Of a stretch of DNA of 41,717 bases, positions 3,839 through 41,045 are shown piece by piece; position 1 is the first letter of the stretch, and each line of letters opens with the position of its first letter. Location: NCBI GenBank assembly GCA_016188005.1, contig JACPIQ010000121.1, positions 75,866 through 117,582 of the forward strand. The letters run 5' to 3'. The notes beneath the pieces are model-generated. The model was not told the origin of the DNA. It saw only the letters and a program-made list of their open reading frames with translations, and did not search any database. Both the position numbers and the translations under genes were made by a program. Origin of the DNA: Candidatus Rokuibacteriota bacterium. Its GTDB lineage: Bacteria; Methylomirabilota; Methylomirabilia; Rokubacteriales; CSP1-6.

Positions 3839-4813
3839 CTACGGCCACCAGAGGTAGAGGAAGCGGGGACCGGCGCCGCCCACGAGGGCGGCGAGCTGGG
3901 CCGCGGCCGCCTCGGCGCTGGGCGGGGTGGGCGTCGAGGAATAGAAGGTCGCGCGGTACTCCCTGGGGCGGTGGTACATGACGACGCGCGCTTCGGTGAG
4001 GCCCGCCGCCCGCCGCGCGATGGCCACCGCGTCGTCCAGGTACCCCACGCGGTCCACGAGGCCCAGCGCGAGCGCCTGGTCGGCCGTGTAGATACGCCCG
4101 TCGGCCACGGCGCGCACGCGCTCCTCGGGGAGCTTGCGGGAGGCCACGATGAGGCTCACGAAGCGGCCGTGCATCGCGTCGATGACCTCCTGGAAGATGG
4201 CGCGCTCCTCGTCGGTGAGGCTCCGGAAGGGCGAGCCCGCATCTTTCTTGGGGCCGGACTTGATGGCCATCGGGGCCACCCCGATCTTCTCGAGGAGCCC
4301 CTGGGTGTTGACCGTGAGCATGACGACGCCGATGCTGCCCGTGATGGTCGTCGGGTGAGCGATGATGGTGTCGGCGGCCAGCGCCGCGTAGTACCCACCC
4401 GAGGCCCCCACGTCCATGATGGCCGCCACCACGGGGATCTTCCGGCGCGCCTTGAACGTGGAGATCTCCCGGTGGAGGATGTCCGAGGCCGTGATGGTGC
4501 CGCCGGGGCTGTTGATGCGGACGATGAGGGCCCGCACCTGCTCGTCCTGCTCGGCCCGGCGCAGCTCTTCGCGGACGCGCGCCAGGAGCGGGACGCGCGG
4601 CGGGGGTGTCCCGAGGCTGAGCCCGGGCGCGTCCTCGGCCAGCACGCCCGAGAGGTCCACGAGGAGGATCTTGGCCGCTCCCGATCCCTCCACGGTCTCC
4701 TCGACGAGCGGACGGATCCGGGGTTGCAGTTCCAGCGAGATCACCGAGCAGCCGGCCAGGAGGACCGCGGCCGCGAGCGTCGACACTCGGGTAGCCAGAC
4801 GCCAGGCGCGCAT
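3839..4813 (-). CDS. sppA: Signal peptide peptidase SppA-type lipoprotein protease (S49)
   Basis: The 324-residue protein begins with a lipoprotein signal: basic MRAWR, a hydrophobic stretch, lipobox LLAGC with Cys22. The S49 fold follows, with INSPGG at about 100-105, catalytic Ser138 in GASGGYYAA and catalytic Lys190 in KSGPKKDAGSP. The 52-residue Ser-Lys spacing equals that of the short Bacillus SppA (Ser147/Lys199). It degrades leftover signal peptides and possibly other membrane peptides. The ATG at 4813 is preferred over upstream in-frame codons because the lipoprotein signal starts there and a promoter sits directly before it. A lipid anchor in place of the usual transmembrane anchor is a variation on the family. 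Confidence 0.9.
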   Translation of the reverse strand: MRAWRLATRVSTLAAAVLLAGCSVISLELQPRIRPLVEETVEGSGAAKILLVDLSGVLAEDAPGLSLGTPPPRVPLLARVREELRRAEQDEQVRALIVRINSPGGTITASDILHREISTFKARRKIPVVAAIMDVGASGGYYAALAADTIIAHPTTITGSIGVVMLTVNTQGLLEKIGVAPMAIKSGPKKDAGSPFRSLTDEERAIFQEVIDAMHGRFVSLIVASRKLPEERVRAVADGRIYTADQALALGLVDRVGYLDDAVAIARRAAGLTEARVVMYHRPREYRATFYSSTPTPPSAEAAAAQLAALVGGAGPRFLYLWWP

Positions 4814-4819
4814 GGCGGG

Positions 4820-4848
4820 AGTATACGGGCCGCGGCGAGCCTCCTCAA
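4820..4848 (-). promoter_or_regulatory. sppA promoter, probably leaderless
   Basis: On the minus strand, TTGAGG (4848-4843), a 17-nt spacer and TATACT (4825-4820) form a good sigma70-type promoter. Only six bases (CCCGCC) separate the -10 from the ATG at 4813. Transcription should therefore start at or next to the A of the ATG, leaving no room for a ribosome binding site. Confidence 0.6.
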
Positions 4849-10028: not shown

Positions 10029-10078
10029 GGGGTCAGGTCTTGCATTGGGACAAATGCTGGATTGCAAGACCTGACCCC
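10029..10078. repeat. REP-type palindromic element (GGGGTCAGGTCTTGCA)
   Basis: A perfect 16-bp inverted repeat pairs GGGGTCAGGTCTTGCA (10029-10044) with TGCAAGACCTGACCCC (10063-10078) around an 18-base loop. From memory, palindromes with this GGGGTCAGGTCTTGCA core occur in many unrelated bacteria and are linked to REP-associated tyrosine (Y1) transposases; I could not search to confirm this. No transposase is in the window. Its position after the SCP2 gene means it may also act as a terminator or 3' stabiliser. Confidence 0.75.
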
Positions 10079-10105
10079 GGTGCCTTCCTGCCGCTCCGGG
10101 CGTGC

Positions 10106-10118
10106 TATCCTGCCGGCC
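10106..10118 (+). promoter_or_regulatory. Possible -10 for the CoA-transferase pair, near-leaderless
   Basis: TATCCT at 10106-10111 lies seven bases before the ATG at 10119, resembling the leaderless promoters seen at sppA, phaR, queF and the GatC-like gene. No convincing -35 hexamer is found at 16-18 bases, so support is weaker than for those four. Confidence 0.4.
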
Positions 10119-11459
10119 ATGACGATTCCCAGGGACTACTTCGACTGGGCGGCCACCCTCTTCGATCCGGCGCGGATCCACGAGAAGCCGGAGGCGCTCG
10201 GGGGCATCCGCGTGCTGGACCTCTCCGTGATCTACTTCGGCCCGGCCACCGGCGACTTCCTGGGCGAGATGGGCGCCGAGGTGATCAAGGTGGAGATGCC
10301 GGGGCAAGGGGACGTGACCCGCATCCTCGGCAACGCCTCCTTCTTCTGGAAGAATGTCTCCGTCGCCTTCTTCTGCGCCAACCACTCCAAGTACCACGTC
10401 GGCATCGACATGCACCGGGCCGAGGGCCAGGAGTTGATCCGCCAGCTGGCCGCGCGCTCCGACATCGTGATCGAGAACTACAAGGCGGGAACGCTCGAGG
10501 AGAAGTTCGGGCTGGGGTACCGACAGCTCAGGGAACTGAACCCCCGACTCATCTACGTGGCCAACACGGGGTTCGGTCAGTGGGGACCGTTCTCCAAGGG
10601 GCGGGCCTCCTATGACGGGTTGGCCCAGGCCGTGTCCGGGCTCACCGCCATCACCGGCGAGGGTGCGCTGCCGACCAAGATCGGAAACTACCTCGGGGAC
10701 TGGTTCGGCGCCTCCATGTCGGCGGTGGGCGCCCTGGCCGCGCTGCGCTGGCGCGACCGCACGGGGGAGGGCCAGTTCGTCGAGATGGCGCAGTGCGAGG
10801 GGCTCGTGCGCGCCATGGACTGGACGTGGCTCTACGCGGGGCTCACCGGGCGCGACCGACGAAAGGCGGGCAACGGCGATCACGTCTTCGCCCCGTCCGG
10901 CGTCTATCCCTGCGCTGACGGCTACGTGGCCGTGGTGGCCGGCACGGACCGCGAGTTCCGGGGGCTCTGCCGCATGCTCGGCGAGCCGGGACTCGCGCGA
11001 CAGGAGCGCTTCGCCACCGCCGCGGCGCGCCGCAAGCCGGCGAGCGTCGCGGCGCTCGACGCCAGGCTCGCGGTGTGGTGCCGCGCACGGCGCCGCGCGC
11101 AGGTGGAGGCCGCCGCCCGGAAGGCCGGCGTCTCCGCCGCGCCCGTGATGACGGCGAAGGACCACGCCGAGAGCCAGCACCTCCGCGCGCGGCGCTCGGT
11201 GTGGGAGTACGAGGATCCGGTGTACGGGACCATGGTCGAGTACGGACCCGCGCCCAAGCTGTCCGCCACGCCGCCGCGGATCAAGTGGGCGGGCAAGCCC
11301 GTGGGCTTCCACAACGAGCTGGTGCTCAAGCGCATCCTGGGTCTCGACGAGGCGCGCATCAGGGAGCTGGAGGCCGCCGGGGCCATCGGGCGCTGGGCCG
11401 AGGGCCGCCGCGGAGCCGGGCCGCCAGAGGGGTGGAAGGGCGAGGGGAGGGTCGTGTGA
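10119..11459 (+). CDS. CaiB/BaiF family III CoA-transferase (catalytic Asp present)
   Basis: The 446-residue protein has the family III CoA-transferase pattern: GGIRVLDLSVIYFGP near 30, the LGEMGAEVIKVE strand, and LNPRLIYVANTGFGQWGP. The catalytic region GNYLGDWFG gives Asp194, the residue that forms the covalent glutamyl/aspartyl-CoA intermediate in this family. A C-terminal CoA-transferase lobe follows. It moves CoA between carboxylic acids, activating an acid for degradation without ATP. The start at 10119 is favoured because the open frame upstream runs through the REP hairpin. Its stop overlaps the GTG of the next family member by four bases, pointing to a heteromeric enzyme. Confidence 0.88.
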   Translation: MTIPRDYFDWAATLFDPARIHEKPEALGGIRVLDLSVIYFGPATGDFLGEMGAEVIKVEMPGQGDVTRILGNASFFWKNVSVAFFCANHSKYHVGIDMHRAEGQELIRQLAARSDIVIENYKAGTLEEKFGLGYRQLRELNPRLIYVANTGFGQWGPFSKGRASYDGLAQAVSGLTAITGEGALPTKIGNYLGDWFGASMSAVGALAALRWRDRTGEGQFVEMAQCEGLVRAMDWTWLYAGLTGRDRRKAGNGDHVFAPSGVYPCADGYVAVVAGTDREFRGLCRMLGEPGLARQERFATAAARRKPASVAALDARLAVWCRARRRAQVEAAARKAGVSAAPVMTAKDHAESQHLRARRSVWEYEDPVYGTMVEYGPAPKLSATPPRIKWAGKPVGFHNELVLKRILGLDEARIRELEAAGAIGRWAEGRRGAGPPEGWKGEGRVV

Positions 11460-16047: not shown

Positions 16048-16076
16048 TTGTCGCCCCTGACGCGCGGTGTTAGACT
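16048..16076 (+). promoter_or_regulatory. phaR promoter, probably leaderless
   Basis: TTGTCG (16048-16053), a 17-nt spacer and TAGACT (16071-16076) are followed after exactly six bases by the phaR ATG at 16083. The transcript is expected to begin at the start codon. No ribosome site is present upstream of the ATG. Confidence 0.6.
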
Positions 16077-16082
16077 CCGGCC

Positions 16083-16592
16083 ATGGCGTACGTGGTCAAG
16101 CGGTACTCCAACCGCAAGCTCTACGACACGCAGGAGAGCCGCTACGTCACCCTGGAGGAGCTGGAGGAGATGATCCGCGCGGGCAAGGAGATCTCCGTCG
16201 TGGACGTGTCCACCGGCGAGGACCTCACCTCCGTCACGCTCGCGCAGATCATCCTGGAGAACGAGCGGAGCCACCGGGCGGCGTTGCCCACGGCCTTCCT
16301 GCACCAGCTCATCAAGCACGGCGAGGCCTGGCAGGACTTCGTGCAGAAATCGCTCAGGGGGAGCCTCGAGTCCATCATGACGAGCCAGCGGGAAGCCGAC
16401 CGGGTCTTCCGGGAGTGGGCCGCCCGGGCGGGGTGGCTGCCGGCCCAGCCGTCGGGGAGCCCCACGGAGAAGAAGGCCGCTCCGCCCGCGGAGCCGGCGG
16501 CGGAGGCCGATACGTTGAAGAGCGAGGTGACGGCCCTGCGGGAACAGCTCCGGGCGCTGGAAGAGCGTCTGGAACGGAGGCGGGAGAAGTGA
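16083..16592 (+). CDS. phaR: PHA synthesis transcriptional regulator PhaR
   Basis: The 169-residue protein opens with MAYVVKRYSNRKLYDTQESR, the signature of the PHB/PHA accumulation regulator DNA-binding domain (about 1-62). A second conserved domain follows at about 70-110 (FLHQLIKHGEAWQDFVQKSL) and then a Pro/Ala linker and coiled coil (ALREQLRALEERLERRR). PhaR in Ralstonia and Paracoccus binds both DNA and PHA and represses phasin genes until granules appear. The convergent phasin gene ends 55 bases away. The start is fixed by the domain and by a promoter six bases before it. Cytoplasmic or granule-bound. Confidence 0.93.
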   Translation: MAYVVKRYSNRKLYDTQESRYVTLEELEEMIRAGKEISVVDVSTGEDLTSVTLAQIILENERSHRAALPTAFLHQLIKHGEAWQDFVQKSLRGSLESIMTSQREADRVFREWAARAGWLPAQPSGSPTEKKAAPPAEPAAEADTLKSEVTALREQLRALEERLERRREK

Positions 16593-16647: not shown

Positions 16648-17097
16648 TCAGGCGATCGGGGCGTAGGTGGTCTTCACCTTCCCCGCGAGCTGGGTGAAGG
16701 TGGCCTGGATCTCCTTGCCGGTCTGCTCGGCGCTCACCTGCAGGCGCTCCGCCGAGCGGGTGATGGCCTGGGCATTGGCCTCCAGCAGCTGGAAGGCCTT
16801 CTGCGCGCCCTCGACGGACTCGAGCACGCTCTTCTGACAGAAGCCCAGGGGGTCCCTGGAGGCCTCCTGCAGCTCGGACTGGCGGCGCAGGAGGTAGGAC
16901 TGGTTGTGCTTGACTGCCTCGACGGCCGAGGCCTGAAGCTCGCCATAGAGGCGGGCGCCCTCCTTCGCCGTGCTGGCTGACAGGTCGACCAGTTCACGGA
17001 GGATCTTCTGGTTGGCGTCCGCGCAGAGGGACAACGCCTCCACGGCCTTGCTGCCGATCCGGGTGAAGAGCTCGTTCGCGTGCGTCGGGTCTAGCAT
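16648..17097 (-). CDS. phaP: Phasin (PHA granule-associated protein)
   Basis: The 149-residue, all-helical protein is rich in Ala, Gln and Glu, with the phasin look: TRIGSKAVEALSLCADANQK, then AVKHNQSYLLRRQSELQEAS and the end QATFTQLAGKVKTTYAPIA. Phasins coat PHA granules and control their number and size. ATG 17097 is preceded by AAGGAGGAAAGAGGC; in-frame ATGs farther upstream lack such a site and fall in the promoter region. It faces phaR tail to tail. Its promoter holds a palindrome that could be the PhaR site. The family is weakly conserved, so the name leans on context. Confidence 0.85.
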   Translation of the reverse strand: MLDPTHANELFTRIGSKAVEALSLCADANQKILRELVDLSASTAKEGARLYGELQASAVEAVKHNQSYLLRRQSELQEASRDPLGFCQKSVLESVEGAQKAFQLLEANAQAITRSAERLQVSAEQTGKEIQATFTQLAGKVKTTYAPIA

Positions 17098-17155
17098 GCC
17101 TCTTTCCTCCTTCGTCATACGGGACAGCGAATCGGGGGTTCCGGCCACGCCTAGG

Positions 17156-17184
17156 ATCATAACGCGGAGCGTTATCAGAGTCAA
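17156..17184 (-). promoter_or_regulatory. Phasin promoter with palindromic operator in the spacer
   Basis: On the minus strand, TTGACT (17184-17179), 17 nt, and TATGAT (17161-17156) form one of the best promoters in the window. A perfect palindrome, ATAACGC-GGA-GCGTTAT (17159-17175), fills the spacer and overlaps the -10. A third half site, GCGTTAT, lies at 17200-17206. A bound protein would block RNA polymerase, so repression is expected; the PhaR encoded nearby is the first candidate. Confidence 0.65.
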
Positions 17185-23102: not shown

Positions 23103-25562
23103 ATGACAAGAGCTTCCGCTGCGCTGCTGGTGCTCCTCGCCGTCGCCCTCGGCCCGAGCCCGGCGGCTGCCCAGAAGGAGCGCGCCGAGCGCCCCAGCTA
23201 CGCTGTCGGGGACAAGTGGCTCCGCAGCGACGGCGCCTTCGACCTCATCCGGATCGAGGGTGATGTCTACATATTCGCCTCCGACCGCGGGCGCGAGGTG
23301 CATCTCAGCCGGGACCTGGCGCTGACGAAGGTCGTCAGCCGCGGCAGCGTGGACTTCGAGCTCGACCCGGCGCCGAAGATCTCCTGGCCCCTCGAGGTGG
23401 GCAAGGAAGGCTACGCCTCGGCGCTGCTGCGCACGGGGCGCAATCCGGTCGGCGCCCAGGTCCGCGTGTTCTGGCGGGTCGAGGCCTACGAGCCAGTCAA
23501 GACTCCCGCGGGCACCGTCACGGCGTTCAGGATCTTGATGTCGCTGGCCGGCACCTTCGGGGGGCCCGCGGCCGGCCGGGAGTGGGGGACGATCCACAGC
23601 TGGTACGCGCCTGACCCCGGGCAGATCGTCGCGATGAGATCGCCTCCGGGCCCTTTGCCGAGCTTCCGCGTCGTCGCCTTCGACCGTCCGGCCATGCCGG
23701 CGCCGCTGGCGGTGGCCCTGGCCGACCCGAAGGACCAGATCAGGGTGGCGGCCGAGGAGGTCGTGGTCTCGGGCAAGGTGACCTCGGGCAAGGGCGTGTC
23801 GGCCGTCAGCGTGTCCCTCAACGGCACCGACCTCTCGCGCCAGGAGGAGAAGGGGGCGCCCCCGAAGGAGCTGGCGCTCCGGATCCCCGTCAGGCTCAGG
23901 GAGGGCAAGAACGTCCTCGTGGTGACCGCCGTGGAGGCGGGCGGCACGACGAAGCAGGAAGCACGGACCCTCTTCTATGACAGGCCGGGGTTGCCGCCGC
24001 CGGCCGCGACGACTCCGGCGCCGCCCGCCGCGGCCGCGCCCATGCCTCCCGTGCCGGGTGCGGTGGTATCGGCGCCGCCCCCGCCCCGGGGCGGCCGGCC
24101 GCGTCCCGCGGCTCCCCCCCCCGCCCCCGCGGCGTCCGTTCCCCCGCTCCAGCTCCTCGTCTCCTCCCCGGGCGATCAGGCGCGGGTGGAGCGACAGAGC
24201 GTGGCGCTCGCGGCGCTGGCGTCGGGCGGGAAGGGGATCAGCCGGGTGCTGGTCACGCTGAACGGACAGGAGGTGTCGCGCCAGGAGCCGCCCAGCCCCC
24301 AGCCCTCGCTGGCAGTGAACCTGGCTCTCACCCTCCGGGAAGGTCCGAACACACTGGTGGTCACGGCCATCGAGCCGGACGGCCAGGCGCATCAGGAGGT
24401 GCGCACGGTCCAGTACGACAAGGTGGTCCCGCTCACGGTGGACGTCCGCTACCCGACGGACCAGGGGCGTGTCACGGAGCCGTCCAGCCTCGTGGCGGCC
24501 ACGGTGGCCTCGAGCCGCGGCGTGGCGAAGGCCAGTGTCCTCCTGAACGGCGTGGAGGTGCACCAGCAGAGCGAGCGGGCGACGCCGAGATCCGTGGCCC
24601 TGGCGGTGCCCGTGACTCTCCGCGAGGGGACCAATGTCGTGGTGGTGCGCGCCGCCGAGGCCGACGGCACGGTACGCCAGGAGATCAGGACGATCGTCTA
24701 CGACAAGCCGAAGGTGGCCGCGGCCGCACCCGCGCCGCCTCCGGCTCCGGCGAAGTCCCTGCCCGATCGCTGGGCGGTCGTGATCGGGGTGGGGCGGTAC
24801 GACAGCCCCGACGTGACGCCGCTGCAGTACGCGGTTCCGGACGCCGAGGCGCTCTACCAGGTGCTGATCGGGCCGGGCGGGTTCAAGAAGGAGCACGTGC
24901 TGCTCCTCACCGACAACACGGAGCGCAAGCCCACGCTCAGGAACATCAAGTGGGCGCTCGGCACCTTCCTGACGCGCTCGGCGAAGAAGGACGACACCGT
25001 GATGATCTTCTTCGCGGGGCACGGGGCGCCGGAGGTCGACCCGCGAGGCCTCGAGCGCGACGGGCTGGCGAAGTACCTGGCCCCGTCGGATGTGGAGCCG
25101 GACGACCTCTACTCCACGGCCCTGCCCATGGACGAGATGCAGACCGTGTTCCAGCGCATCGAGGCGGAGCGGATGGTGGTGTTCCTGGACGCCTGTTACA
25201 GTGGGGCCGCGGGCGGGCGCACCTTCGCCTCGAAGAAGACGCGCGCCACCCACGTGGACGACCTCTTCCTGGAGCGGCTGACACGCTCCAGGGGACGGGC
25301 CATCGTCACCGCCTCGCGCCCCACCGAGGTGTCGCTGGAGGTGCCGGAGCTGGGGCACGGGCTCTTCACGTACTACCTGGTCCGGGGGCTCCAGGGGGCG
25401 GCCGACTTCAACCGGGACGGCATCGTCTCCTTGCAGGAGATCTATGAGTATGTGGAGCAGCAGGTGAGCCAGAAGTCGCGGGCCCTGGGAGGCAACCAGC
25501 ACCCGGTGATGAAGGGCGAGATGGAGGGCGCGCTGCCCCTGGTGAAGGTCGGCGGGCGATGA
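23103..25562 (+). CDS. Secreted caspase-family (metacaspase-like) protease with Ig-like modules and EF-hand, copy 1
   Basis: 819 residues. A signal peptide (1-24) precedes a beta-rich domain (about 30-195) with a DUF3108-like FRI...WYAP pattern. Three Ig-like modules follow (about 197-292, 348-440, 441-540), each ending like QEVRTVQYD, with a Pro/Ala linker at 295-345. The caspase p20-like domain starts near 554 (RWAVVIGVGRY); its catalytic dyad is His640 in FFAGHGAPE and Cys698 in [12 protein letters not shown] canonical EF-hand loop, [12 protein letters not shown] (768-779), lies in the C-terminal part. It is probably a calcium-responsive Arg/Lys-specific peptidase outside the cytoplasm. 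ATG 23103 is preferred for its signal peptide. Its stop overlaps the next start. Confidence 0.85.
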   Translation: MTRASAALLVLLAVALGPSPAAAQKERAERPSYAVGDKWLRSDGAFDLIRIEGDVYIFASDRGREVHLSRDLALTKVVSRGSVDFELDPAPKISWPLEVGKEGYASALLRTGRNPVGAQVRVFWRVEAYEPVKTPAGTVTAFRILMSLAGTFGGPAAGREWGTIHSWYAPDPGQIVAMRSPPGPLPSFRVVAFDRPAMPAPLAVALADPKDQIRVAAEEVVVSGKVTSGKGVSAVSVSLNGTDLSRQEEKGAPPKELALRIPVRLREGKNVLVVTAVEAGGTTKQEARTLFYDRPGLPPPAATTPAPPAAAAPMPPVPGAVVSAPPPPRGGRPRPAAPPPAPAASVPPLQLLVSSPGDQARVERQSVALAALASGGKGISRVLVTLNGQEVSRQEPPSPQPSLAVNLALTLREGPNTLVVTAIEPDGQAHQEVRTVQYDKVVPLTVDVRYPTDQGRVTEPSSLVAATVASSRGVAKASVLLNGVEVHQQSERATPRSVALAVPVTLREGTNVVVVRAAEADGTVRQEIRTIVYDKPKVAAAAPAPPPAPAKSLPDRWAVVIGVGRYDSPDVTPLQYAVPDAEALYQVLIGPGGFKKEHVLLLTDNTERKPTLRNIKWALGTFLTRSAKKDDTVMIFFAGHGAPEVDPRGLERDGLAKYLAPSDVEPDDLYSTALPMDEMQTVFQRIEAERMVVFLDACYSGAAGGRTFASKKTRATHVDDLFLERLTRSRGRAIVTASRPTEVSLEVPELGHGLFTYYLVRGLQGAADFNRDGIVSLQEIYEYVEQQVSQKSRALGGNQHPVMKGEMEGALPLVKVGGR

Positions 25563-27913
25563 GCCGGGCGCGCCAGGTGTCGCTTCTCGCGCTTCTGACC
25601 GTGGGCCTGCTGGCGTCGCCGTCTTCTGCCCCCGCCCAGAAGCCGCGCGCCGAGCGCCCGACCTATGCGCTCGGCGAGAAGTGGGTCCGCAGCGACGGCC
25701 TCTTCGAGCTCGTCCGGATCGACCGCGATCTCTACATCTTCGCCCAGGGCCCCACCCGCCAGGTGCATCTCACTCGTGATCTCGGAATCGCGCACCTGGA
25801 GAACGGCCCGTACTACCTCACCATCGATCCCCCCTTCAACCTGCGCTGGCCGCTGGAGGTGGGGAAGTTCGGCATCAGCGACGTCCGGTGGAGGTGGGAT
25901 GCGAATCCGTCGGGGTTGCCGGCGAAGCTGACCTGGAGCGTCGAGGCCGTCGAGGAGGTCCAGGTCCGCGCGGGACGGTTCCAGGCCTTCCGGATCCAGC
26001 TCCAGGTCGAGTACTCGGCGAGCACGACCCACTACCATCAACTCTGGTACGCTCCCGATGTCCGCCAGTTCGTCAAGTCGGAGTGGATGGTCAGTGCGCC
26101 GGCGGCCCGCTTCGAGGTCGTCTCCGTCGAGCAGCCGCAGCCTCCCCTGGCCGTTGTGCTCGCTCGCCCCGTCGACGGCGCCGTCGTCGCCGCGCCCGAC
26201 CTCGTGGTCACGGGCGCGGTGCGGGGCGGGGCCGGCGGCGGCGAGGTACGCGCCACGGTGAACGGCACCGAGGTGCCGGTGGTGACGAGGCCGGGCCCCG
26301 AGGGTGCCGATCTGGCGCTCAGCGCTGCTGTCCGGTTGAAGGAGGGGCGGAACGTGATCCTGATCACCGCCACCGACCGGCGGGGCGCCGTTCAGCAGCA
26401 GGCGCGCACCGTCGTCTTCGAGCGTTCCCCGCCCGTCGGTGAGCGGCCGACGGCGCCGCGACCGCCGGCTGTGGTGGGGCCGAAGGCTCCACCCGCAGGG
26501 TTGACGGTCGCGCTCTCGTCCCCCGAGCACCGGTCGACCACCGCCCAGGAAGCCGTCACGCTGGCCGGCATGGCATCCAGCGGCCATGGGGTGACCAGCG
26601 TCGTCGTGACCCTCAACGGCACCGAGGTCTCGCGGCTCCAGCAGCCCGGTGCCCCACGGGCGGTCCCGGTCAACCTCCCCCTGCGGCTCCGTCAGGGCAC
26701 CAACACGCTGGTCGTGACGGCTTCGGACGCCGGCGGCGGCGTCCACCAGGAAGTGCGCACGATCGAGTACGAGCCGCGGATCCCGCTGACGATCACCTTC
26801 CGCTATCCGGAGGATCGGGCACGAGTGGGAGAGGAGTCGAGCATCGTGGCGGCCGTGGTGACGTCGAGCAAGGGCGTGGCCAGGGCCACGGTGAGCGTCA
26901 ACGGCGTCGAGGTCCATCAGCAGACCGAGCGCACACCGGCACGGGCCGTGGTCGTCTCCGCGCCGGTGACCCTCCGCGACGGCGCCAATGCGATCGTCGT
27001 CAGCGGTATCGAGGCGGACGGGACCGTGACGCAGGAGGTGCGGACGGTCTTCCTCGATCGCCCCAGGCCCGCCGGGGAGGCGGTACCCGTGCCGGGGACG
27101 CCCGCCCCGCCCGCGGAACGCTGGGCGGTGGTGATCGGGATCGGCCGGTACGAGAGCCAGGGCATCCCACGGCTGAGCTACACCCTGTCCGACGCCGAGG
27201 CGATGTACCAGACGCTCCTCGCCGCGGCCGGCTTCAAGAAGGAGCATGTGCTCGTGCTGACGGACCGGACGGAGCGCAAGCCGACGCTCAGGAACATCAA
27301 GTGGGCGCTGGGGACATTCCTGGCCCGATCGGCGAAGAGACAGGACACGGTCGTGATCTACTTCGCGGGCCACGGGGCCCCCGAGGTGGACCAGCGCGGG
27401 GTGGAGCGGGACGGGCTGGCGAAGTACCTGATCCCGGCGGATGCGGACCCGGACGATCTCTTCTCGACCGCGCTGGCCATGGACGATATCCAGACGATCT
27501 TCGGCCGGATCGAGGCGGAGCGCGTGGTGGTGTTCCTGGACGCCTGCTACAGCGGGGCGGCGGGCGGGCGGACCTTCTCGTCGAGGAAGACGCGGGCGGG
27601 GCACGTGGACGATCTCTTCCTGGAACGGCTCACGCGCTCGAAGGGGCGAGCGATCATCACGGCGTCACGCCCGACGGAGGTGTCCATCGAGCTGCCAGAG
27701 CTGGGGCATGGTCTCTTCACCTACTACCTCGTCTTGGGGCTCACGGGTGCCGCCGATCTCAACCGGGACGGGATCGTGTCGCTGCAGGAGCTGTACGAGT
27801 ACCTGGAGCAGCAGGTCACGCAGAAGTCGCGGGCGGTGGGAGGCAACCAGCACCCGGTGATGAAGGGGGAGATGGAGGGCTCGCTGCCGCTCGTCAAGGT
27901 ACGGGGGCGCTAG
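25559..27913 (+). CDS. Secreted caspase-family protease with Ig-like modules and EF-hand, copy 2
   Basis: The 784-residue paralogue of the preceding gene has the same layout: signal peptide (1-25), N-terminal beta domain (about 30-195), three Ig-like modules (about 198-290, 313-405, 406-500), and a caspase domain from about 520. His605 lies in YFAGHGAPE, Cys663 in [11 protein letters not shown], and the EF-hand loop is [12 protein letters not shown] (733-744). The long Pro/Ala linker of copy 1 is shortened. The caspase halves are nearly the same ([34 protein letters not shown] in both), while the N-terminal parts have diverged. The ATGA overlap with copy 1 suggests linked translation. It ends tail to tail with queF, overlapping by four bases. 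Confidence 0.85.
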
Positions 27914-28275
27914 AGCTCCCGCCGCGTACCGTGGGTGGCGCGCACCACGGTCTTGATCCCGCCGCGCACGCTGAAGTCCCCGACCACCTCGATCCAGCGC
28001 GGGGCGGCGACGGCCACGAAGTCGTCGAGGATCCGGTTGGTCACGTCCTCGTGGAAGGCCCCCTCGTTCCGGTACGACCAGATGTACAGCTTGAGGGACT
28101 TGAGCTCCACGAGGTGCCGGTCGGGGATGTAGCGGATCCGGATGGTCGCGAAGTCCGGCTGGCCCGTCCTCGGGCAGAGACAGGTGAACTCGGGGATGTC
28201 GACGGCCACCTCATAGTCGCGCTCCGCATGGGGGTTCGGCACCACCTCCAGCGCTTTCGACGGCTGGCTCGGCAT
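27910..28275 (-). CDS. queF: NADPH-dependent 7-cyano-7-deazaguanine reductase QueF
   Basis: The 121-residue protein is a short, unimodular (type I) Que[15 protein letters not shown] holds the catalytic Cys34 and Asp41, seven apart as in the Bacillus enzyme (Cys55/Asp62). [20 protein letters not shown] is the nitrile-substrate/NADPH region. It reduces preQ0 to preQ1 in queuosine tRNA-modification synthesis. No other que gene is in the window. The ATG at 28275 has a promoter six bases upstream and no ribosome site. The end overlaps the caspase gene by four bases. Confidence 0.93.
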
Positions 28276-28281
28276 GGCTCG

Positions 28282-28311
28282 ACGCTACCGCGGGGTCCTG
28301 CGCGGCGTCAA
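28282..28311 (-). promoter_or_regulatory. queF promoter, probably leaderless
   Basis: On the minus strand, TTGACG (28311-28306), an 18-nt spacer and TAGCGT (28287-28282) are followed after exactly six bases (CGAGCC) by the queF ATG. This is the same geometry as at sppA, phaR and the GatC-like gene. The promoter overlaps the last codons of the upstream metallopeptidase. Confidence 0.6.
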
Positions 28312-39368: not shown

Positions 39369-39397
39369 TTGTCAATGGCACGGCGAGCCGCTATCCT
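39369..39397 (+). promoter_or_regulatory. Promoter of the GatC-like/amidase operon, probably leaderless
   Basis: TTGTCA (39369-39374), 17 nt and TATCCT (39392-39397), then exactly six bases to the ATG at 39404. The mRNA is expected to begin at the start codon. Confidence 0.6.
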
Positions 39398-39403
39398 GCG
39401 CCC

Positions 39404-39583
39404 ATGGAACCTCTCACGCTCGACGCCATCCGCGCTGTCGCCCGGTCGCTGGGGCTCGATCTCACCGACGAGGAGCTGGCGGGATTGCTCCCCCTCGTCC
39501 AGAGCGCCCGCGCCCTGATGGATGCGCTTCCCCTGGAGGCGCTGCGCGACCTCGAACCCGCCTCCCAGTACCGAATCCTCTGA
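39404..39583 (+). CDS. GatC/AtzG-like small amidase subunit
   Basis: The 59-residue protein is helical (LDAIRAVARSLGLDLTDEEL, then LPLVQSARALMDALPLEALR) and ends PASQYRIL, in the style of GatC and of AtzG, the small partner of the amidase AtzE. It lies ten bases before an amidase gene, which supports a two-subunit enzyme. Typical GatC is about 95 residues, so AtzG-like is the better description. It would stabilise the amidase by wrapping around it. The start is fixed by the promoter six bases upstream; there is no ribosome site. Confidence 0.7.
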   Translation: MEPLTLDAIRAVARSLGLDLTDEELAGLLPLVQSARALMDALPLEALRDLEPASQYRIL

Positions 39584-39593
39584 GGAGACCCGC

Positions 39594-41045
39594 GTGAGCG
39601 ACCTCGTGTGGAAGCCCGCGACGGAGCTGGCCCGCGCCATCGCCGCCAGGGAGATCTCACCCGTCGAGGTGATCCAGGCCCATCTCGATCGCATCGCCGC
39701 GCTGGACGGCAAGCTCAAGGCCTACCTCACGGTGATGGCGGATGCGGCTCTCGAGCGCGCGAAGGCCGCCGAGGCAGCCGTGATGGCCGGGGAGCCGCTG
39801 GGGCGGCTTCACGGCGTGCCCGTGGCATTCAAGGACCTCTACTGTACGAAAGGCGTCAAGACCACGGGCGGCTCCCGCATCCTGGCCGAGTGGGTACCCG
39901 ACGCGGATGCCACGGCGGTGTCGCGTCTCGCCGCGGCAGGGGCGATCGCCCTCGGCAAGCTCAACATGCACGAGTTCGCCTATGGCCCGGAGGGGCTCAA
40001 CCCGCATTACGGCAATCCGTGGAACCCCTGGGACCACAATACCCATCGCATCTGCGGGGGCTCGTCGTCGGGCTCGGGCGCCGCCGTCGTGGCGGGGCTC
40101 TGCGCGGGCGCGCTCGGCTCGGACACGGGCGGCTCCATCCGCATTCCCTCGGCGCTCTGCGGGATCAGCGGGATCAAGCCGACATACGGGCGGGTGAGTC
40201 GGGCGGGGGTGCTGCCGCTGGCCTGGTCCCTCGACCACGTGGGGCCCATGTGCCGCAGCGCCGCCGACTGTGCCCTGATGCTCGGGGCCATGGCGGGCTA
40301 TGATCCGCGCGATCCCACCACGAGCGTGCTGCCGGTGCCCGACTACACGGCGGCGCTCACCGGCCAGGTCAAGGGGCTCCGCATCGGCGTGCTGCGGTCG
40401 TTCTTCCTCGAGTCCACGGGGTTGGCGCTCCGCCAGGCGGTGGAGGAGGCGGTGAAGCTGCTCGAGGGGCTCGGCGCCACCACCCACGAGGTCAATCTCG
40501 AGACGGCCGGCTATGCGCCGGCCGTTTCCCACGCCGTCCTCGCCCCGGAGGCCTTCTCCTACCACGAGGCATGGCTCAAGGCGCGGCCCGGGGACTATGG
40601 CGAGGATGTCCGCCAGCGACTGCGCGTGGGGGCCTTCGTCTCCGGCGCCGAGTACCTCAGGGGCCAGCGGGTGCGCGCGCTGATCCGCGGCGAGGTGGAT
40701 GGCGCTCTCGCGAAGGCGGATGTGCTGGTCTGCGCCACCACGCCCATCGTCGCCACGGCCGTCGGGCAGACCGAGGTGATGGTGGAGCACGAGACGCTGC
40801 CGGTGCGCGCGAGCCTCATCCGCTTCACGCGCCCGTTCAACCTGACGGGACACCCCGTGGCCTCGATCCCGTGCGGGTTCACGGTGGCTGGGCTGCCCGT
40901 GGGCCTGCAGATCGTCGGACGCCCCTTCGACGAGGCGACGGTGCTGCGCGTGGCCGACGCCTATCAGCGCGCGACGGACTGGCACACGCGGCGTCCCCCG
41001 GTGGATCTGCCGCGGCCCGTCGGGCCCGAGGGCGCGGCCGCGTGA
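39594..41045 (+). CDS. Amidase-signature enzyme (GatA/AtzE-like)
   Basis: 483 residues from GTG 39594. The Ser-cisSer-Lys triad is clear: Lys80 in PVAFKDLYC, Ser157 in ICGGSSSGSG and Ser181 in GSDTGGSIRIPSA, with spacing like that of GatA. The length matches GatA/AtzE. It hydrolyses an amide. With the AtzG-like protein upstream, and an ABC importer before that, catabolism of an imported amide is more likely than tRNA amidation; the absence of gatB here agrees, although only part of the genome is seen. The GTG follows GAGGAGACCCGC. Its stop overlaps the start of the next small gene (GTGA). Confidence 0.88.
   Translation: MSDLVWKPATELARAIAAREISPVEVIQAHLDRIAALDGKLKAYLTVMADAALERAKAAEAAVMAGEPLGRLHGVPVAFKDLYCTKGVKTTGGSRILAEWVPDADATAVSRLAAAGAIALGKLNMHEFAYGPEGLNPHYGNPWNPWDHNTHRICGGSSSGSGAAVVAGLCAGALGSDTGGSIRIPSALCGISGIKPTYGRVSRAGVLPLAWSLDHVGPMCRSAADCALMLGAMAGYDPRDPTTSVLPVPDYTAALTGQVKGLRIGVLRSFFLESTGLALRQAVEEAVKLLEGLGATTHEVNLETAGYAPAVSHAVLAPEAFSYHEAWLKARPGDYGEDVRQRLRVGAFVSGAEYLRGQRVRALIRGEVDGALAKADVLVCATTPIVATAVGQTEVMVEHETLPVRASLIRFTRPFNLTGHPVASIPCGFTVAGLPVGLQIVGRPFDEATVLRVADAYQRATDWHTRRPPVDLPRPVGPEGAAA

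Follow-up and report, generated by a model that had tools for sequence, protein, structure and literature searches.

A set of ordinary sigma70-type promoters in Rokubacteria very probably lies so near the start codon that transcription begins on it or within a few bases of it, and the genes behind them appear to form a regular minority class. The sequence analyzed here (the window, 41,717 nucleotides, G000:C121:75866-117582) belongs to a Rokubacteria MAG, G000, of 5.37 Mb and 98% completeness, and the closest relatives of its phaR gene are found in Rokubacteria MAGs. A preliminary description of the window had pointed to four unrelated genes whose -10 hexamer ends exactly six bases before the ATG with no ribosome site, and had suggested that leaderless translation is routine in this lineage.

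Promoters and start codons in the window

Reading the DNA directly, we find that the -10 hexamers of phaR, sppA, queF, and a GatC-like gene stop exactly 6 nt short of the ATG, and that of a CoA-transferase seven bases short of its own, as the preliminary description had them (Table 1). Ribosome sites are indeed absent, with no Shine-Dalgarno (SD) motif within 16 nt upstream of any of the five ATGs, and the gene identities hold where a family can be assigned (PHB_acc_N for phaR, Peptidase_S49 for sppA, QueF, and CoA_transf_3). At the four genes, a TTGACA-like -35 lies 17 or 18 nt from the -10, within the 16-18 nt of a sigma70-type promoter; no good -35 was found upstream of TATCCT at the CoA-transferase. 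No Rfam families were found in the window, which also encodes a Caspase-domain protein (Peptidase_C14) with Ig-like domains at 25559-27913.

Table 1. Promoter elements and genes of the window with a -10 hexamer close to the start codon
Feature	Coordinates	Strand	Detail
sppA promoter -35 TTGAGG	4843..4848	-	17 nt to -10
sppA promoter -10 TATACT	4820..4825	-	cccgcc (6 nt) then ATG 4813
sppA-like S49 peptidase, predicted leaderless	3839..4813	-	PF01343 (Peptidase_S49) E 2e-47
CoA-transferase -10 TATCCT	10106..10111	+	gccggcc (7 nt) then ATG 10119
CoA-transferase family III, predicted to have no leader or almost none	10119..11459	+	PF02515 (CoA_transf_3) E 3e-106
phaR promoter -35 TTGTCG	16048..16053	+	17-nt spacer to -10
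Imperfect palindrome TGACGC-GCG-GTGTTA (TGACGC-N3-GTGTTA), phaR spacer/-10	16058..16072	+	candidate PhaR operator
phaR promoter -10 TAGACT	16071..16076	+	ccggcc (6 nt) then ATG 16083
phaR (PHB/PHA accumulation regulator), predicted leaderless	16083..16592	+	PF07879 (PHB_acc_N) E 2e-27 from residue 4
queF promoter -35 TTGACG	28306..28311	-	18 nt to -10
queF promoter -10 TAGCGT	28282..28287	-	cgagcc (6 nt) then ATG 28275
queF (7-cyano-7-deazaguanine reductase), predicted leaderless	27910..28275	-	PF14489 E 2e-35
GatC-like gene promoter -35 TTGTCA	39369..39374	+	17 nt to -10
GatC-like gene promoter -10 TATCCT	39392..39397	+	gcgccc (6 nt) then ATG 39404
Small GatC-like ORF, 60 codons including stop, predicted leaderless	39404..39583	+	precedes amidase gene
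Amidase gene	39594-41045		PF01425

The sppA start codon is fixed by the lipoprotein-type signal peptide (LAGC) in its translation, and the GAGGAGG upstream overlaps the -35 and is too distant from the ATG to serve as an SD motif. In queF, alignment entropy falls at the ATG, with codon-like conservation from there on and third codon positions the most variable, which marks this ATG as the true start. For the GatC-like ORF we obtained zero Pfam matches, a result that says little since the query began at 39403, one base before the ATG and in the wrong frame, and relatives in genus g1 alone, from a query with the same one-base offset that is no more informative about the protein. Its -10 and geometry are identical in three same-genus copies; the CoA-transferase spacing is 6 or 7 in three same-genus copies.

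An inverted repeat, GGGGTCAGGTCTTGCA / TGCAAGACCTGACCCC, lies upstream of the CoA-transferase (10029-10081) and resembles a dispersed REP-like repeat, because its 13-bp core has 54 copies in 1.58 Mb of G000 and zero in six other sets sampled. A leaderless lookalike on the minus strand, TTGACT-17-TATGAT-7-GTG at 17148 (17095-17161), was rejected as probably having a leader after all, an SD-led ATG being present downstream at 17097.

Enrichment across the genome and its relatives

By a Poisson estimate, four or more cases at a spacing of 6 among about 35 window genes have P of about 2e-6 (background 1.33 per position per 556 starts). Because this spacing was picked after being seen in the window, it is the genome-wide and cross-species tests that carry weight. 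A simple codon-model gene finder called 1227 genes in 1.58 Mb of G000, window included, with 556 called ATGs, and TAnnnT was tallied at each distance d from its last base to the start codon. The motif stands at d=6 before 12 of the 556 ATGs, against a background of 1.33 per position at d 15-59; d=7-12 contribute 32 together and d=13-14 none. In 200 dinucleotide shuffles of the upstream DNA, d=6 reached a mean of 1.2 and a maximum of 5, and d 6-12 a mean of 8 and a maximum of 16, compared with 44 observed. The scan proposed in the preliminary description thus returns enrichment at a spacing of exactly six bases; the favored spacing is borne out as the genome-wide peak, but the range runs from 6 to about 12. 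Internal in-frame ATGs, taken as a control, give a flat TAnnnT profile with no peak.

Of the TAnnnT sites 6-12 nt before starts, 25% have TTG at a spacer of 17, compared with about 0% inside genes. Bipartite promoters no more than 120 nt from a start number 48; of these, 10 have a d of 6-9 and none a d of 0-5, the intragenic control giving 1. Moreover, the signal is found at 11.7% of promoter-proximal genes versus a background of 2.6%, and at 2.8% of operon-internal genes. At d 6-9 the excess above background corresponds to 4.4% of ATG genes, and over the wider range of d 6-12 to 6.2%. Leaderless-type genes make up about 9% of promoter-proximal genes, and of the clear bipartite promoters no more than 120 nt from a start about 21% belong to them. 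GGAG-type SD motifs, present at 40% of ATG starts, peak 6-8 nt upstream. Since an excess of a few percent stands beside common SD motifs, leaderless initiation is regular but confined to a minority: the word "routine" overstates it, with about 4-6% of ATG genes involved and SD-led genes common. At the signal, ATG is preferred over GTG (Fisher P 6e-4). A pyrimidine occupies -1 in 11/12 cases at d=6 versus 329/556 overall, which is suggestive but too weak to stand alone. A search of the G000 MAG (98% complete) for a 16S rRNA gene, sought for its anti-SD, found none.

With the identical pipeline, enrichment is 5.6x in G000 and 5.1x in the actinobacterial plasmid Rhodococcus pRHL1 (9 observed at d 6-9 versus 1.8 expected), with depletion in Cupriavidus pHG1 (0.15x; 1 versus 6.7) and E. 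coli (0.65x; 7 versus 10.8), two of these control replicons being plasmids and the samples small. The Methylomirabilis genome G008 has 10 at d 6-9 versus 7.5 expected and 6 versus 1.9 at d=6 alone, and another relative, G010, shows no signal at any of 23 ATG starts in the 120 kb sampled. In 48 genomes of the family, TTG-N20-TAnnnT-N6-ATG occurs 475 times versus 137 with N15 and is higher in 45/48, counts that orthologues make non-independent. This comparison, which includes the -35, replaced one of TATnnT-N6-ATG with N14 that was dropped because N6 and N14 are not in the same codon phase.

Conservation of the spacing among orthologues

Before sppA, TATACT is invariant in 30 genomes of 19 genera, at d=6 in 27/30 and d=7 in 3/30; the 27 include loci L156 and L157, given d=11 and 24 by the automated search (tie-breaking or overlap) and seen by eye to carry TATACT at d=6. 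Among 35 queF orthologues, d is 6 in 26, 7 in 1, and 10 in 2, with no TAnnnT in 6. Thus, sppA and queF hold a spacing of exactly 6 (7 in a few) across 13-19 genera, where the flanking upstream DNA has turned over and many copies have no -35, mostly where the -10 is near consensus. In queF, genomes with a -35 have the weak TAGCGT and those without one have TATAAT or TAGAAT. The base before the start is a pyrimidine in the d=6 copies.

Among 37 Rokubacteria phaR loci, a spacing of 6 nt is found in the window, L001, L002, L036, and L037, and the remaining loci have 8-10 nt, 15-17 nt, or a clear leader with a ribosome-binding site. phaR does not keep the spacing across relatives, which counts against the leaderless explanation, as do the six queF copies lacking the signal, the empty G010 sample, and the simplicity of the gene finder behind the start calls. 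The palindrome overlapping its -10 is kept in most of the 37 loci, even where the promoter has moved, and has no second exact copy within 1.58 Mb of G000; it is likely a PhaR autoregulatory operator. In Methylomirabilis (f4), most recognizable queF -10s are TATAAT at d of about 12-14, and these genes are predicted to have a short leader in place of leaderless initiation. We see an even chance that the promoter-to-start spacing of Rokubacteria is under selection and that queF and phaR have passed from leaderless to short-leader forms, or back, as related groups diverged. If so, gain and loss of leaderless initiation could be traced gene by gene.

Predicted initiation at the start codon and comparison with known systems

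By established promoter behavior, a sigma70 RNA polymerase with a -10 ending 6 nt upstream would start on the A of the ATG, usually after a pyrimidine, and the mRNA would have neither leader nor SD motif. In studied bacteria, 70S ribosomes read leaderless mRNAs at the 5'-terminal AUG (PMC9031893); by analogy, those of Rokubacteria would be translated in the same way, as a class that coexists with SD-led genes.

The -10 elements could be real with the transcript beginning as many as about 6 nt ahead of the ATG, producing very short leaders. Such leaders would suit the breadth of the enrichment (d 6-12), the phaR relatives at d 8-10, and the f4 queF promoters, and they probably describe the d 9-12 subset. 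However, the genome-wide peak lies at 6 and sppA and queF keep to exactly 6 (7 in a few) over 13-19 genera, so that as a general account very short leaders are unlikely. We give far less credence to the AT-rich hexamer being a translational element, S1-binding or Kozak-like, and not a promoter. An A/T bias upstream of SD-less starts is already known, and S1 and promoter signals were inseparable in one study (PMC5397173), but the pattern here is TAnnnT rather than generic A/T, TTG stands at exactly 17 nt upstream, the signal is concentrated at promoter-proximal genes, and in queF the weak hexamer goes with a -35 and the strong ones without, as promoters should behave.

That the earlier reader selected chance TAnnnT matches is almost certainly wrong. 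The spacing was chosen after being seen, and d=6 cases are more frequent in the window than expected from the genome as a whole (P 0.0016); against this stand the shuffles, the internal-ATG control, and the conservation across genera, which together uphold the original view that chance is hard to credit. Chance is refuted for sppA and queF, and single nonconserved genes could still be explained by it. Promoters that start transcription at or next to the ATG remain our preferred explanation. They would place one more lineage, an uncultured one, among those where leaderless genes are a regular class, and allow a comparative, gene-by-gene test of leaderless initiation without RNA. Moreover, start-codon annotation that relies on SD motifs will misplace such genes in Rokubacteria MAGs.

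What is new in Rokubacteria is the lineage and not the mechanism, leaderless initiation being a known, if minority, mode of beginning protein synthesis (Zheng et al. 2011, PMC3160421), and in the open-access literature we found no prior paper linking leaderless initiation to Rokubacteria or Methylomirabilis. The genome-wide TAnnnT peak at 6, the absence of SD motifs at the window genes, and the promoter-proximal concentration are features of TA-led genes, which were found in 207/953 bacterial genomes (Zheng et al. 2011, PMC3160421). There, too, the first T of TAnnnT lies about 12 bp upstream, which puts the end of the motif 6 nt before the start, in a minority of genes of high-GC genomes; Rokubacteria are not among the groups listed, and in them a -35 is also visible at spacer 17 and orthologues conserve the spacing across genera. 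In Mycobacterium tuberculosis, TAnnnT lies 7-12 bp from the transcription start site (TSS), with C/T at -1 (Cortes et al. 2013, PMC3898074). The two share the TAnnnT -10, transcription starts at the start codon, and the pyrimidine at -1, but in M. tuberculosis these starts are RNA mapped, account for 26% of the genes for which a primary TSS is known, and have no -35 motif, whereas in Rokubacteria they are predicted from sequence, form a lower fraction, have a -35, and prefer ATG over GTG. Deinococcus-Thermus has the same promoter-to-start geometry, with about 39% of genes leaderless compared to a few percent in Rokubacteria (Zheng et al. 2011, PMC3160421).
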